Position numbers and translations under genes: made by a program. A stretch of 63,580 nt of DNA. Source: an uncultured Bacteroidaceae bacterium (lineage in GTDB: Bacteria; Bacteroidota; Bacteroidia; Bacteroidales; Bacteroidaceae). Below, one piece after another: positions 9,523-63,288 of this stretch. Position 1 is the first letter of the stretch. Every line of letters starts with the position of its first letter. A model generated the notes under the pieces. It did no database searches and was not told the DNA's origin. It was given only the letters and a program-made list of their open reading frames with translations. The stretch covers positions 1 through 63,580 of the forward strand of contig CAJONZ010000121.1 of the NCBI GenBank assembly GCA_905236065.1, given 5' to 3'.

Positions 9523-9530
9523 TACCTTCG
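9523..9530 (+). promoter_or_regulatory. Putative -7 box TACCTTCG for btu operon
   Basis: A near match to TAnnTTTG (one mismatch), just 5' of the riboswitch. This is a sensible start for a riboswitch-led mRNA. Confidence 0.5.
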
Positions 9531-9540
9531 CGCCGCAATT

Positions 9541-9755
9541 GGTTCTTACAGAGATAAAAAGGGAACATGGGTGGAAGTCCCAGACAGTCCCGCTGCGGTA
9601 ATTTCCAAGAATCCAAGCCACATTATTGCCACTGGATGCCATGTACAACGTGCCATTGATCTGGCACAATTATCCGGGAAGGCTTTGTGGGGAGGAGGAA
9701 TGAGTCCGAAGACCTGCCAAACTGCATTTCAGGTGAAGTCTCCACTCGCGGGTTA
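9541..9755 (+). promoter_or_regulatory. Cobalamin (AdoCbl-type) riboswitch
   Basis: The conserved blocks of the B12 aptamer appear in order: GGGAACATGGGTGGAAGTCC (9571-9590, with the preceding A-rich strand), CAGTCCCGCTGCGGTAA, GCCACTGG, GGGAAGGC, and the B12 box GAGTCCGAAGACCTGCC (9702-9718). It lies directly upstream of btuB. In this class, cobalamin binding normally represses the downstream transport genes by hiding the ribosome site or ending transcription. A later G/C-rich stretch (9735-9765) may form the expression platform. Confidence 0.95.
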
Positions 9756-50808: not shown

Positions 50809-50847
50809 AGTTTTATGTACATTTAAGTTTCTCAAGCTCAACTTTTT

Positions 50848-50975
50848 TGGAAGTTAAAGAGAAGTTAAAAGGAAGTTACCGCTTCGCTTGGAAGTTAAAG
50901 GGACGTATGTCATGTTGATGGGACTACGGTATCGTCCCTTTAACTTCCTTTTAACTCCTTTTCCATTCCCTTCCA
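50848..50975. repeat. GGAAGTTAAAG hairpin repeat, copy B, inside suf operon
   Basis: A 16-nt arm (50890-50905) pairs perfectly with 50933-50948. Further GGAAGTTAAAG units lie to the left. It shares CGCTTCGCTTGGAAGTTAAA and the following GGGACGTATGT with copy A at 17841-17951. It occupies most of the sufB-sufC gap, so it is transcribed with the operon. Confidence 0.85.
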
Positions 50976-51007
50976 TCCTTTCCATTCAACTTGCGAAAGT
51001 TGAGTTT

Positions 51008-58090: not shown

Positions 58091-58151
58091 ATAAGATGTG
58101 CGTCTTATCTCAACGCAAAGCCACATTTTTCCCCTGAATCGTCAACGATTC
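58091..58151. repeat. Two small perfect hairpins
   Basis: ATAAGA-TGTGCG-TCTTAT (58091-58108) and GAATCGT-CA-ACGATTC (58136-58151). They precede the larger structured elements in the gap between rimP and the defence-type genes. The 2-nt loop of the second suggests DNA inverted repeat rather than RNA hairpin. Confidence 0.5.
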
Positions 58152-58192
58152 AACTTTCGGTAGTTGATAAGATGACAAAAACAATAAAAACA

Positions 58193-58317
58193 CCACTCAT
58201 GACGGCTGTGGCCTTCGGCCCAACGTCCTTTCCTTCCGGCTTTGTGCTTAAGAGCAAGCTCTTGCACAGTCCAGAAGAACAGTACGGTTTTGTTTCAAAA
58301 CACAGCCGTCATGGTGG
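58193..58317 (+). ncRNA. Structured element, unit A
   Basis: Outer stem P1: CATGACGGCTGT (58198-58209) with ACAGCCGTCATG (58302-58313), extended by CCAC/GTGG after a bulged T. Inside: P2 GGCC-TTC-GGCC (58210-58220), P3 (58241-58269) with TGTGC/GCACA and AAGAG/CTCTT around a CAAG loop, and P4 GTTTTG-TTT-CAAAAC (58287-58301). Unit B has the same order and spacing on the other strand with different P1 and P4 bases. Whether it acts as RNA or as folded single-stranded DNA is unknown. I know no named family with this layout. Confidence 0.65.
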
Positions 58318-58403
58318 CAAAAACCCCGCCCTTCGGGCTGAAAAACCGTACAGAGTGCAATGGGCAGCTTTTTTAGTGGAACGTAGTGAACGGTGTTTTT
58401 GCC
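58316..58403. ncRNA. Structured element, middle unit C
   Basis: GGCAAAAAC (58316-58324) pairs perfectly with GTTTTTGCC (58395-58403). Inside are GCCC-TTC-GGGC (58328-58338) and ACCGT (58345-58349) with ACGGT (58390-58394). The P3 sequence of units A and B is missing, so it is at best a diverged relative. GTACGGTTTT in unit A (58282-58291) is also complementary to 58342-58351. Confidence 0.45.
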
Positions 58404-58528
58404 TCTGAAGATGTCTGCGGTTCGTGGAGCGAACCCATTGATGACTCGGACGCTGTGCGAGAGCTTGCTCTCAGGCACAAACGAGCGAGGCAACAATGAG
58501 GGCCGGAGGCCGCAGACAGAAGCAGAGG
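58402..58528 (-). ncRNA. Structured element, unit B (inverted)
   Basis: Outer stem: CCTCTG (58402-58407) with CAGAGG (58523-58528), a symmetric 4x4 internal loop (AAGA/GAAG), then TGTCTGC (58412-58418) with GCAGACA (58512-58518). Read on the minus strand: P2 GGCC-TCC-GGCC (58501-58511), P3 (58453-58481, 26 of 29 bases as in unit A), P4 GGTTCG-CTCCA-CGAACC (58419-58435). P2-P3 and P3-P4 spacings are 19 and 17 nt, against 20 and 17 in unit A. Confidence 0.65.
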
Positions 58529-58610
58529 GATTTTTAAGGTTTTTGTTAAGAACCAAAACGTAAATCAAAACGATTTTCCACGTTTCTATGCACGACGAAA
58601 TGAAGCGAAA

Positions 58611-58700
58611 ATGACGCAGAACTCTATTCGCCTGAAGAGTACTGCGTGAAATCGAATAGAGTACTGCGTCATCTCCGATAGAGTTCTGCGTGAAAATAGG
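58611..58700 (-). repeat. 22-nt triple repeat with inverted end, copy 4
   Basis: Units begin at 58636, 58658 and 58680 (exact 22-nt steps, AGAGTACTGCGT core on the plus strand). The inverted unit ACGCAGAACTCTATTCG lies at 58613-58629. The reverse complement matches copy 1 for about 58 nt, and its flank matches the flank of copy 3. Confidence 0.85.
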
Positions 58701-58831
58701 AAAAATCAAGGTGCTGGTTCCCACAAACTTAACAAAGAGGAAACACAACATATTTCCATAAAACTGGAGCCAATCGTTAAAACTTTGTCACATTTTCCGT
58801 GAGTTTACCGCTTATTTGCGAAAAAAACATG

Positions 58832-58966: not shown

Positions 58967-59045
58967 ACTAAAATACTGGAGGTCAGTATGGATGATTTGT
59001 TGTGGACAGAAGAAGCGTAATCTTTCTAATAAGCAGTTTAACAAA

Positions 59046-60167
59046 ATGAGGACAATCACGATGAAGACAGAACTGAGCACCATCGATAATAAAGAATATC
59101 AGCATTGGTTTCACCACCTCTGCGAAGAAATTGATAAGCAGCGGCTGAAAGCAGCGATGCAGTTGAATGCCGCTACCCTCCAACACTATTGGTGGCTGGG
59201 AAATGACATCATACAAAAACAAAAAGACAAGGGCTGGGGAGCTAATGTGATTAATCGGTTATCGGCTGACTTACAGGAACGATATGGCAGCGACAGTGGT
59301 TATTCGTCCCGAAATCTTGGATATATGAAGCAGTTTGCCTCTGAATATCCTCATTTCCCGTTTTTGCAAGTACCACTTGCAAAAATGCAGGAAACGCCAA
59401 TTTTGCAAGCGAGACTTGCAAAATTCACGATATCGGCAGATGGTGAATTTGTGCAAGTGCCACTTGCACAAATCACATGGTATCATCATATTTCCATGAT
59501 TCCCAAGATAAAAGACCTATCGTTGCGGGCGTTCTACATAACAGAGGCTGCCATCCAAGGATGGAATCGCGACATCATGATGTTACAAATAGAGAATGAG
59601 TATTACAAGAAAGCACAAGCGCTACCAAACAATTTTGACACAACCCTACCGCCCGTGAACAGCGATTTGGCAAAAGCCACTTTTAAAGATCCCTACAATT
59701 TAGGATTCGTAGATATGACGAAGGTGAAGCAGGAACTGGATTTGGAAGATCAATTAGCCAGTAAGGTAACAGATTTTCTGTTGGAACTTGGCAAAGGCTT
59801 TGCGTATATAGGTCACCAATATCCTTTGAACATCGCTGGTGAGGAAAGCAAAGTGGACTTACTGATGTACCACACCCGTTTGCACTGTTACGTGGCCATT
59901 GAGTTGAAGGTGGTTGACTTTAAGCCTGAGTTCCTAAGCAAACTGAACTACTATATCTCAGCCATTGATGACTTGGTAAAGATGCCCGAAGATAATCCGA
60001 CCATCGGATTATTGCTGTGCCGTTCAAAAAATAACACGAAGGTAGAATATGCCCTTCGAGGTATGACCCAACCTCTGGGCGTAGCAGAGTATCAGACAAA
60101 CAAAATGATAGAGGAACTGAAATCAGAATTACCCTCTATTAGTGATTTGGAACAAACGCTGCAATGA
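59046..60167 (+). CDS. DUF1016 (YhcG-type) PD-(D/E)xK nuclease
   Basis: 373 residues from ATG 59046 (MRTITMKTELSTIDNKEYQHWF); ATGs at 58992 and 59061 are alternatives. The N-terminal helical DUF1016 domain (to about 185) has LQHYWWLGNDIIQKQKDKGW and YSSRNLGYMKQFASEYP. The C-terminal nuclease domain has Asp near 270 (KVDLLMYH) and E-L-K near 285-287 (CYVAIELKV). The family is often found with restriction or toxin genes. Unusual: the variable region (about 106-143) has three LQ[VA]PLAK-like peptides, each encoded by a perfect DNA palindrome. Codon use is A+T-rich relative to the rest of the window. Confidence 0.85.
   Translation: MRTITMKTELSTIDNKEYQHWFHHLCEEIDKQRLKAAMQLNAATLQHYWWLGNDIIQKQKDKGWGANVINRLSADLQERYGSDSGYSSRNLGYMKQFASEYPHFPFLQVPLAKMQETPILQARLAKFTISADGEFVQVPLAQITWYHHISMIPKIKDLSLRAFYITEAAIQGWNRDIMMLQIENEYYKKAQALPNNFDTTLPPVNSDLAKATFKDPYNLGFVDMTKVKQELDLEDQLASKVTDFLLELGKGFAYIGHQYPLNIAGEESKVDLLMYHTRLHCYVAIELKVVDFKPEFLSKLNYYISAIDDLVKMPEDNPTIGLLLCRSKNNTKVEYALRGMTQPLGVAEYQTNKMIEELKSELPSISDLEQTLQ
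59361..59473. repeat. Three perfect palindromes inside DUF1016 gene
   Basis: Arms TTTTTGCAAGT/ACTTGCAAAAA (59361-59385, spacer ACC), AATTTTGCAAG/CTTGCAAAATT (59399-59425, spacer CGAGA) and ATTTGTGCAAGT/ACTTGCACAAAT (59447-59473, spacer GCC). All share TGCAAG/CTTGCA. They encode LQVPLAK, LQARLAK and VQVPLAQ. Confidence 0.9.
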
Positions 60168-60299
60168 CATAAAGACCATTGCAACACCTCTGGTGCCTAT
60201 CAAGGTGCCAAGTATTTCTCGTATAATGGGAAAGCGCTGGATGAGATTACAAAAGAAAAAGAATGTAGTTTTGATTTGCAACTACTAAGCTCCCAATAA
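60168..60299 (+). pseudogene. Open remnant between DUF1016 and MmeI-like genes
   Basis: In the same frame as the DUF1016 gene, after its stop, 43 codons stay open to TAA at 60297-60299. The reading (SGAYQGAKYFSYNGKALDEI, then KEKECSFDLQLL) looks protein-like but has no ATG start. It could be the 3' end of a lost gene. I do not recognise it. Confidence 0.3.
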
Positions 60300-60300
60300 A

Positions 60301-63288
60301 ATGAAAAATGAAACACCTAATATGCGTAAACATTCAGAAATAAGAAAAGCTGCAAATGCTTTTGTAAATAGATGGGCAGGTAAAGGCAAAGAACGTCAAG
60401 ATGATAAGACATTCTGGGAAGATTTGTTGGAAGATGTTTTTGGCGTTTCTAAATCAAGGAACGAGATAGAAGTGCAACGTCCTGTAAAGTTTGGTGGTAC
60501 AACTAAGGCGATAGATGTTTATGTGAAGGATTCTAAGGTTGTTATTGAGCAGAAAAGCTATGACATCAATCTTGATCAAAAAGAAAAACAGAGCGATGGA
60601 GTTATGCTTACACCGCTTGAACAAGGAATACGCTATTTTGAGAAGATGGATAAGCCTGATACAGGGCGTTATGTGATTGCTTGCAATTTTCAGGAGTTTC
60701 GTATATGGGACAGTTACCACAAGAATGCTCCACAACGTATTATACCATTAAAAGATTTTCCTAAACGTTGGAAAGAACTTCTTTTCTTGGTTGAACCATA
60801 CAATGATGCGCCAGTGCAGAAAGATGAAAAGCGTGAGAAAAGGGTTTCAAGTACAGCAAGTGAGTATGTTAGAGATTTGTATAAGGCATTGCTATCTGTC
60901 AATAATAAATATTCTAAGGAAGAACTTCAATCTCTGAATGTTTTTTGTGTTCGGGTGGTGTTTTGTCTATATGCTGAAGATGCAGGTTTGTTTGATGATG
61001 CGCAATTCAGCACTTTTGTGGAAAAATTTTCTGCCAATGATTTGAGTGAGAAATTTGATGCGTTGTTTCAATGGCTTGACACAGATGATAAGGAAAGAGT
61101 GAAATCCGCAAATATGGTGGATAAGATCATACGCCAATTCCCATACGTGAATGGAGGTTTATTCAAATTCACGAAAGAATACAAAACTCCAACCATTAAT
61201 GAAAATGTTCGTAACCAACTCCTTCGTGCTTGGAATTTGGTGGTGAAAGATTCTAAAGAAAAAGAACAATTCACATGGGATGAAATCTCTCCGACAAACT
61301 TTGGCTGTATTTTTGAAAGTACAGTTGCAACAGATGTCCGCAACTCTGGAGGAATGCATTATACCACTCCCACCAATATCCATCGCGTGATAGATCCTTT
61401 GTTTTTGGATGACTTAACTTCTGAATTGGAATGTATTATACAAATGTCGGCAAATGACCCCAAAAAAATTAAAAGAAGGAATGCTGCATTTGAAGATTTC
61501 CGTAAGAAACTGGCAAAAATGCGCTTCCTTGACCCCGCCTGTGGTAGTGGAAATTTCCTTACAGAAGTGTATAAGTCGTTGCATGAATTGGAACTGCGGG
61601 CGATAATACAAGAGTTTGATTTAAACTATTCCACCAAGATAGAAACAACAGATCCGTGCATGGTGAACATCAATCAGTTCTATGGAATAGAAATCGACCA
61701 TTTTGCAGCATCGGTGGCTCGTGCTTCTCTGTGGATAGCGGCTTGCCAAATGTTGCAAGAAACAGAAAAGGTGTTGCACTATGCGCTTGACCCTTTGCCA
61801 TTGGAGAAGAATGACAACATTCTGTGTGCCGATGCACTGCGTGTAAACTGGGGAAACCTTGTGAAGCGCGGGGCTACTTCGCCAACATATATCATCAGTA
61901 ATCCTCCGTTCCAAGGTTATAGTAAAATGACGGAGGCACAGAAATCCTCCATCAATATTGCCATGCCAAGCAAGATTGGAAATAAAAAAGTCTGGAACAA
62001 TCAGGGCAAAATGGATTTCGTGTGCGGGTGGTATGCAAAGGCTGCTGAATATATGAGTAAAAAGTCGAATGTGAAGTGTGCATTGGTATCTACCAACAGC
62101 ATTACGCAAGGTGAGCAGGTGGCTCTTTTATGGAAACCACTAGTGCAATACTACAATCTTCACATCTCATTTGCATGGAAAACATTTCGCTGGTATAATG
62201 AAGCTGACGAAATGGCGCATGTTCATTGCGTGATTATAGGATTTGGTAAACAAAAGAAGGGTGAGAAGTGCCACATCTATCAAGAGAATATTCCGATGGT
62301 TGAAGCGAACAATATCAATGGCTATCTGATGGGGGCTGAGGATATCTTCATAGAGAGTCGTACCAAGCCATTGGGAAATGTGTCTGCTATGATGAAGGGA
62401 AGCATCCCTGTGGATGGGGGTAATCTGATTATGAATGTTGATGAATGTAAAAAACTATTATCTGCGGAACCTCAAGCAGAACAGTATGTGAGGGAATTAA
62501 TGGGGGCAAGGGAGTTTTTACATAACGAGAAACGTTTTTGCTTGTGGATTCCCGATGAACCATCTTCCGACGAACTGGAAAGTATGCCTTTAGTTCTGAA
62601 TCGCATAAGGGCGGTAGAGGAATTCCGATTGAAAAGTAAGAAAGTTGCAACAATAGATTTTTCAGATCAGGGTTACCGATTTATGGAAATCAGACAGCCT
62701 AATCAAAAATACATCCTTATACCAAGCCATTCTTCTGAAAATCGCAAATACATACCAATGGGGTTTATGGAGCCTACCATTATTAGTACAAATGCAAATC
62801 TGGTTATTCCAGCCCCCTCCAAATGGCTGTTTGGCATTTTGCAGTCACGCATTCATATGATATGGGTGAAATATGTCTGTGGAAGATTAAAAAGTGATTT
62901 CCGCTATTCTGCTAACATTGTCTATAACAATTTCCCGTGGAGGAAGTTAGACGAAGAACAGAAGAATGCAATAGAAATTACAGCGACAGAGATACTTGAA
63001 GCAAGAAAGGCAGACTCATCGAGTCTTGCCAGTCAATATGATTTGTTGAAGGGACGGCTTTCTAAAGCACATAAAGAGAATGACAAGGTTGTTGCTAAAG
63101 TATATGACATTGATTTAAACTTGAGTGATGAAGAAATTGCCCTTGAATTGATGCGTCGAAGTATGAAATTGGCAAAATCTAAAGATAAGAAAAAGAAAAA
63201 AAGAAAGATACATATTGAAAAGGAAAAGAAGAATACTGAAGAGAAACAGGATATGGCGAATCTTCCTTTTGTTGAACAAGACGAATAA
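60301..63288 (+). CDS. MmeI-like type IIG restriction endonuclease-methyltransferase
   Basis: 995 residues, similar in size to MmeI. One chain cuts and methylates DNA. The N-terminal nuclease has Asp72 and Glu83-x-Lys85 in AIDVYVKDSKVVIEQKS, so the PD-(D/E)xK site looks intact. A helical linker (about 180-350) is followed by a gamma-class N6-adenine methylase: motif I DPACGSGNF (about 411), YGIEIDHFAASVARASLW and motif IV NPPF (about 534). The target-recognition region (about 620-850) sets DNA specificity. The C terminus is Lys-rich (KDKKKKKRK). The gene is A+T-rich compared with the rest of the window, suggesting horizontal transfer. No separate specificity or methylase gene follows. Confidence 0.9.
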   Translation: MKNETPNMRKHSEIRKAANAFVNRWAGKGKERQDDKTFWEDLLEDVFGVSKSRNEIEVQRPVKFGGTTKAIDVYVKDSKVVIEQKSYDINLDQKEKQSDGVMLTPLEQGIRYFEKMDKPDTGRYVIACNFQEFRIWDSYHKNAPQRIIPLKDFPKRWKELLFLVEPYNDAPVQKDEKREKRVSSTASEYVRDLYKALLSVNNKYSKEELQSLNVFCVRVVFCLYAEDAGLFDDAQFSTFVEKFSANDLSEKFDALFQWLDTDDKERVKSANMVDKIIRQFPYVNGGLFKFTKEYKTPTINENVRNQLLRAWNLVVKDSKEKEQFTWDEISPTNFGCIFESTVATDVRNSGGMHYTTPTNIHRVIDPLFLDDLTSELECIIQMSANDPKKIKRRNAAFEDFRKKLAKMRFLDPACGSGNFLTEVYKSLHELELRAIIQEFDLNYSTKIETTDPCMVNINQFYGIEIDHFAASVARASLWIAACQMLQETEKVLHYALDPLPLEKNDNILCADALRVNWGNLVKRGATSPTYIISNPPFQGYSKMTEAQKSSINIAMPSKIGNKKVWNNQGKMDFVCGWYAKAAEYMSKKSNVKCALVSTNSITQGEQVALLWKPLVQYYNLHISFAWKTFRWYNEADEMAHVHCVIIGFGKQKKGEKCHIYQENIPMVEANNINGYLMGAEDIFIESRTKPLGNVSAMMKGSIPVDGGNLIMNVDECKKLLSAEPQAEQYVRELMGAREFLHNEKRFCLWIPDEPSSDELESMPLVLNRIRAVEEFRLKSKKVATIDFSDQGYRFMEIRQPNQKYILIPSHSSENRKYIPMGFMEPTIISTNANLVIPAPSKWLFGILQSRIHMIWVKYVCGRLKSDFRYSANIVYNNFPWRKLDEEQKNAIEITATEILEARKADSSSLASQYDLLKGRLSKAHKENDKVVAKVYDIDLNLSDEEIALELMRRSMKLAKSKDKKKKKRKIHIEKEKKNTEEKQDMANLPFVEQDE

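Follow-up and report, generated by a model that had tools for sequence, protein, structure and literature searches.

The window, a stretch of 63,580 nucleotides from an uncultured Bacteroidaceae bacterium (GenBank contig CAJONZ010000121.1), includes a 420-base segment with no recognised gene, overlapped by a mechanically called ORF of 167 aa. The ORF on one side of this segment is presumably rimP-like, and on the other flank (58992-63288) an MmeI-type restriction-methylation protein is encoded behind a DUF1016/YhcG nuclease; these defence-type genes adjoin a housekeeping operon. The paired inverted multi-hairpin units that a first-pass annotation had placed at 58193-58528 are indeed present there, but the full feature is larger, extending from 58148 to 58565 as delimited by its conserved ends. 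Its parts are the following.

58148-58565: whole element, about 420 bp, bounded by conserved ends in the alignments of copies
58148-58167, plus strand: End I (ATTCAACTTTCGGTAGTTGA), outer end with a small hairpin; the homology of 11 copies starts here
58174-58194, plus strand: A-tract arm (GACAAAAACAATAAAAACACC), partner of the T-tract arm at 58527-58549; conserved in 11 copies
58193-58318, plus strand: unit A, from predicted folds and covariation
58193-58209 with 58302-58317, 58210-58220, 58224-58286 and 58287-58301: stems P1, P2, P3 and P4 of unit A, from folds
58316-58403, no strand assigned: central part, with a stem (58316-58328 with 58391-58403), a small hairpin (58328-58338) and a variable middle
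58402-58528, minus strand: unit B, inverted, with the architecture of unit A; its P1 has a 4+4 internal loop in the window copy
58527-58549, plus strand: T-tract arm (GGGATTTTTAAGGTTTTTGTTAA), conserved in most of 10 copies
58545-58565, plus strand: End II (GTTAAGAACCAAAACGTAAAT), an imperfect, inverted counterpart of End I; the homology of 10 copies stops here

From the outside in, the element consists of an end, the A-tract arm, unit A, the central stem with small hairpins and the variable middle, followed by the mirror image with unit B. The ends aligned from 11 copies gave ATTCAACTTTCGGAAGTTGA or near as the consensus of end I, and end II in its inward reading (10 copies) was ATTTAAGTTTCGGTT or near, an imperfect inverted repeat of end I. 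The hairpin of end I has a z-score of -4.52, with 2 of 200 shuffles as good.

Other structured sequences were noted in the window. A further palindromic repeat (ACGCAGAACTCTAT...) adjoins the element at 58591-58701, and a similar sequence adjoins a partial element copy at G000:C62 (L015). The repeat at 50842-51003 (GTTAAAGGGAAGTTAAAGGGACG...CGTCCCTTTAACTT) belongs to a second family of inverted repeats and has the end palindrome TCAACTTTCGCAAGTTGA; the exact sequence CAACTTTCGCAAGTTG occurs in 10 of 21 places examined, four of them near contig starts. The Rfam scan also disclosed a cobalamin riboswitch at 9523-9735 (score 89.2 bits; gathering threshold 31.5).

Fold of the units and its covariation

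In both window units P1 closes three arms, namely P2 (4 bp with a 3-nt loop), a long mismatched P3, and P4. Folding with DNA parameters gave z-scores between -5.15 and -7.98 for both strands of units A and B, with none of 200 shuffles as good, and the inverted arrangement of unit A (plus) and unit B (minus), in the arm order originally described, does fold better than dinucleotide shuffles. A 371-nt stretch folded as RNA had z-scores of -8.35 on the plus and -6.66 on the minus strand (0 of 100 shuffles as good). The spacers of 19-20 and 17 nt in that description are not single-stranded; they pair together and form the lower, imperfect part of P3, an arm which in unit A has a z-score of -3.13 when folded alone (2 of 200 shuffles as good). 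P1 and P4 had been described as differing in their bases between the two units while staying fully paired; they do covary, but P1 of unit B is interrupted in the window by the internal loop (58408-58411 with 58519-58522), and in the same genome the homologous unit at contig C13 folds with a P1 of 16 pairs and no interruption. The change of an A-T to a G-C pair flanking the AGAG/CTCT stem of P3 is real (alignment columns 61-74). What was seen as a third, weaker unit corresponds to the central stem, which recurs in other copies but does not stand out when folded alone (z -1.44 and -1.71, with 16 and 8 of 200 shuffles as good).

Covariance models built from 6 units (R1) and from 28 units (R2) retrieved further copies with covarying P1 and P4 from related genomes, in agreement with the proposal that structure, and not sequence, is selected. 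In the 28-unit alignment, standard pairs fill 85.9% of 1371 cells; the figure is 71.5% in shuffles and falls to 31.6-43.9% when partners are displaced by 1-3 columns. Both-side changes occur in 37 of the 51 pairs and amount to 181 cells against 62.0 (sd 5.7) in shuffles, with little excess of further pair types (68 versus 60.5; 5 of 500 shuffles as high). This alignment and that of the 73/81 units described below were fitted to the model, and those of 14 left-type and 12 right-type units were made from sequence alone. In the 14-unit alignment, tested against a structure derived from one of its rows, 89.6% of cells are paired (34.7-39.7% slid, 85.6% shuffled) and 28 cells are changed on both sides against 8.9 (sd 2.5) in shuffles, with no excess of further pair types (206 of 500 shuffles as high). 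For the right-type units 43 pairs were predicted, 27 of which show a both-side change. The largest set comprised 81 units from 56 loci, some places having been fetched twice, and was reduced to 73 non-redundant units by dropping 8 rows of at least 95% identity; here the paired cells make up 85.6% (58.9% in 200 shuffles) and those with both-side changes number 969 (291 in shuffles), although in this set as in the others the units are related, so that shuffle controls overstate significance and counts across units are not independent. The covariation is strong across the units, which retain their shape although their bases differ.

Adjacent units within 600 nt of each other are arranged plus-then-minus in 19 of 20 cases among the 56 loci, with spacers of 59-335 nt, and the single exception was found by reading to be two separate elements. 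Parts of the element also recur in other combinations. At L111 two tandem elements share the flank, left half, centre and right flank and differ in their right units, the second of which has no R2 match yet also folds as a closing stem with three arms (z -4.82, none of 200 shuffles as good). At L062, L070, L072 and L149 the same kind of unit lies within different ends, as judged by reading, and L072 carries in addition an inserted piece that reads like a gene start.

Strand that folds

On the inward strand of the 73 units, mismatches at paired positions comprise 327 pyrimidine-pyrimidine and 26 purine-purine combinations; 72 of the 73 units lean one way (purine-purine on the outward strand), none leans the other way and one is tied. 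Likewise, inward-strand cells include 166 A-C and 92 G-T combinations, with 43 units leaning to A-C, 15 to G-T and 15 tied. Read on the outward strand, these counts therefore correspond to purine-purine mismatches and G-T wobbles. The outward triloops are GNA in 87 of 107 cases with DNA parameters, none being TNC, and in 65 of 82 cases with RNA parameters, while the outward tetraloops are CNNG in 73 of 99 cases, with 3 GNRA and no UNCG. GNA loops on G-C stems are described as giving very stable DNA mini-hairpins (PMC4686876). With DNA parameters the outward strand was the more stable one in 70 of the 73 units; with RNA parameters it was also favoured (on average -57.2 against -50.3 kcal/mol), and strand preference alone therefore cannot tell DNA from RNA. 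The outward strands run into T-tracts. By its loops and mismatches, the outward-reading strand of each half is the one that folds, that is the minus strand in the left half and the plus strand in the right.

Distribution and insertion sites

The window genome holds several relatives of the element: at C13 (end of A, centre, B and right end), C86 (part of the centre, B and right end), C90 (left end, A and right end, but no B), C17 (left end and centre) and C62 (right end and part of the centre), with left ends alone at C122, C88 and C17. With R1, units were found in at least 4 of 45 genomes of the genus of the window; with R2, they were found in at least 22 of 399 genomes of its family (9 of 30 genera) and, in another genus, in at least 29 of 139 genomes, a single genome giving as many as 12 matches. 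These genome counts are lower bounds from 78, 8 and 25 scored candidates per genome in the 45-, 399- and 139-genome sets, respectively, which overlap, and some matches are opposite-strand echoes. One genome (G049) was matched in the 45-genome search (30.8 bits) and not in the 399-genome search, and another (G058) showed the reverse. The exact pattern of the P3 tip was found in 19 stretches of a collection of 84,980 species genomes, with titles naming Prevotellaceae, Bacteroidaceae, Bacteroidales, Prevotella or Xylanibacter and several with rumen sources; two of these stretches are in Xylanibacter brevis ATCC 19188. A search of viral contigs with one exact pattern returned no stretches. Among Prevotella-type bacteria of gut and rumen, a minority carries the element. 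Rfam, consulted by a gathering scan of the window and a permissive scan of 8 element loci, gave no match at the elements.

Some units (L050, L135, L138) look unrelated in sequence to the window copy. At L135 and L136, from two genomes, the elements adjoin genes which we take to resemble NusG/UpxY antiterminators. A different long inverted repeat with AAAAAC/GTTTTT borders lies upstream of a rimP-like gene at L083 and suggests further foldback families in these genomes. Two contig ends of one genome (L249 and L250, G428) display the same end I followed by unit-like sequence with no model match, which is probably another unit type.

In genome G465 one gene, presumably saccharopine-dehydrogenase-like, lies between two copies that are nearly identical but differ in their flanks, and the homology between the copies stops at the element ends; in both, end II has about 30 extra bases. 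The spacer from this gene to the adjacent one, which we take to be recA-like, measures 483 nt when occupied. In 10 of the 11 relatives in which the same spacer was read, from 131 genomes with any match, it is 28-252 nt long and free of the element, and in the other it is about 1.1 kb of different sequence; element absence was judged by reading and one length comes from a partial match. Several similar to near-identical copies are likewise present in each of genomes G542 and G445, and their flanks mostly differ. Flanks read by eye gave no consistent target-site duplication, the spacers of the relatives not being alignable base by base; direct repeats of 12-14 nt were read at the flanks of L071 and L078 and may be due to chance. 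A called ORF is present on both sides of 28 of 35 context elements, 18 co-directed, 6 convergent and 4 divergent by mechanical ORF calls, with no clear orientation preference.

An empty-site comparison was attempted at the window locus itself and set aside, as the upstream spacer was not alignable in the 11 relatives read; the rimP query matched in 42 of the 45 genus genomes, that of the window included, with a short match outside rimP in G043. A candidate autonomous element in G178, with units 2 kb apart, proved to be two separate elements around one gene, presumably antiterminator-like. No gene was found inside the element copies read, overlapped only by mechanical ORFs, and no autonomous parent with the same ends was found at the 14 end-I places in 6 of 18 draft genomes; of these places 10 were matched by the unit model (13 loci given) and the rest were inspected by reading.

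Nature of the element

Three possibilities had initially been put forward, namely a small RNA, a recombination site and a folded-DNA mobile element. The last is the best fit of the three, given the copies at different places, the near-identical copies within one genome and an orthologous site that lacks the element in relatives; a small RNA survives as an alternative. We favour, with a probability of roughly 0.55, non-autonomous mobile DNA that folds as a single strand and is recognised through this fold by an enzyme supplied in trans. Accordingly worded as a mechanism, the element of about 420 bp, with its two inverted three-armed folds of about 125 nt around a central stem and between short imperfect inverted ends, would spread between intergenic sites; its outward strand would fold as single-stranded DNA when exposed, for example during replication, and the enzyme would recognise the fold more than the sequence. 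The enzyme could be a single-strand (HUH-type) transposase, as in IS200/IS605 and REP/RAYT. That the active form is DNA rather than RNA seems probable, and recognition by fold nearly as much so; the assignment to an HUH enzyme is tentative.

Y1 transposase matches were found in 18 of 34 carriers, a clear unit lay near 1 of the 28 Y1 loci (L165), and no mobilising enzyme was identified for the element. The flanks of 8 large Y1 genes, located at 8 of 9 loci, and of 6 YIHxNP genes were read, and one of the latter (L165) had a unit nearby. A Pfam search of the window genome gave one Y1 protein, of 147 aa, which passes the IS200 cut-off and not that of RAYT. It resembles subclass 1.2, described without flanking structures (PMC6006769). 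A family of large Y1 proteins (query of 434 aa), matched in 89 of the 139 genomes of one genus, is present in 26 of 29 carriers against 63 of 110 non-carriers (Fisher p 0.001, ignoring relatedness), the three carriers with no match being among the less complete genomes (62-71%). As a partner of the element this family was not retained, since relatedness was uncontrolled, no units were matched near its genes and some of the 8 flanks had different hairpins of their own; the association may serve as a lead only. Two of these HUH-like proteins (L168 1261-2565, 434 aa; L171 592-1911, 439 aa) carry, between their HUH-type and tyrosine motifs as read by eye, a peptide repeated in tandem and in frame.

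Among the closest known systems are REPINs, which the element resembles in being non-coding, dispersed and intergenic, with two inverted units around a spacer (PMC3116915, PMC3733652, PMC6006769). Compensatory changes are reported there for REPIN hairpins too, and REP/REPINs are linked to RAYT (TnpA-REP) HUH tyrosine transposases; the inverted pairing and the strand switch are also shared (PMC3116915). The differences are that a unit has about 125 nt and three arms where a REP/REPIN is a single hairpin of 20-40 nt, that the outward 5' foot is, by reading, GTTTTTGCC or similar and not a REP-type GT[AG]G (GTAG, GTGG) or CGTC, and that no RAYT stands consistently beside the units, whereas REP/REPINs have a cognate RAYT flanked by the same repeats. 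Typical REPs exceed 100 copies (PMC2817692), more than the model matches seen here, which reach 12 in a genome and are in part echoes. In Bacteroidetes, genes of TnpA-Y1 subclass 2.6 are flanked by atypical secondary structures that also recur at other places in the genome (PMC6006769); these come from the same phylum, share atypical folds with the element and could be the same thing.

Large branched covarying folds set the element apart from MITEs, BOX, ERIC and Correia elements, small non-autonomous modular intergenic repeats which it resembles in its inverted ends; a consistent target duplication was not read in the flanks, and no parent transposon was seen at the end-I places. MITEs are reportedly present in Porphyromonas. 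Terminal inverted repeats enclosing no gene, as in a MITE, were found here with imperfect ends. Parvovirus-type inverted terminal repeats likewise form branched hairpins with small loops, about 125 nt long and inverted relative to each other; with its bacterial chromosomal location, its three arms and no Rep gene found, the element is related to them by analogy only. It works like a REPIN or a MITE yet does not, as tested, show the full set of features that defines either, and literature searches covering titles and abstract openings gave no published account in which it was recognised.

An intrinsic terminator, a stable hairpin followed by a T-tract, ends transcripts, and the T-tracts at the end of the outward strands are placed as in a terminator. 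Alternatively, a mobile element could have folds acting as RNA, outward or read-through transcripts forming the three-armed unit with its T-tract and serving to terminate transcription from either side or to shield a 3' end, so that an insertion would be tolerated. The excess of G-T over A-C cells on the outward strand (166 versus 92), the purine-rich loops and the greater stability of this strand with RNA parameters agree with such a role, but the triloops are of the GNA type, GNRA and UNCG are represented by only 3 and 0 of the 99 tetraloops, the 6 convergent and 4 divergent among 28 elements show no clear preference and Rfam gave no match, so that we consider an RNA function rather unlikely. 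Still less probable is a MITE of a double-strand (DDE) transposon, whose enzyme would bind the conserved ends and whose folds would be carried for another reason. The conserved imperfect inverted ends, the lack of an inner gene in the copies read and, by reading, the same unit kind within different ends at L062, L070, L072 and L149 would suit it, but it leaves the covariation unexplained, no consistent target-site duplication was read and none of the 14 end-I places in the 18 genomes showed a transposon with the same ends. Finally, the window genome contains other palindromic repeats, such as those at 50842-51003 and 58591-58701, and an accidental pile-up of unrelated repeats, with chance covariation between two sequences, might be imagined; one architecture in 81 units from 56 loci, with covariation and inverted pairing, speaks against it, and the 28-unit alignment and the searches of the family and of the second genus contradict it, which makes it very improbable.

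The reading as fold-recognised mobile DNA may extend further, and here we are speculating: the element could represent a new class of mobile DNA defined by shape, an inverted pair of three-armed single-stranded folds inside different ends, recognised by an enzyme that needs no conserved sequence in it. If so, units could be exchanged between elements. Because several copies are located at contig ends, the elements are also relevant to the assembly of these genomes. The bacterial palindromic mobile repeats used for comparison are short single hairpins, whereas here a large branched fold in mobile DNA is kept by compensatory change across several genera and bears a sign of the strand that folds. 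Owing to this branched covarying fold and its strand sign, it becomes testable whether a transposase can recognise single-stranded DNA by a branched shape, and which agent mobilises these repeats in the Bacteroidales.
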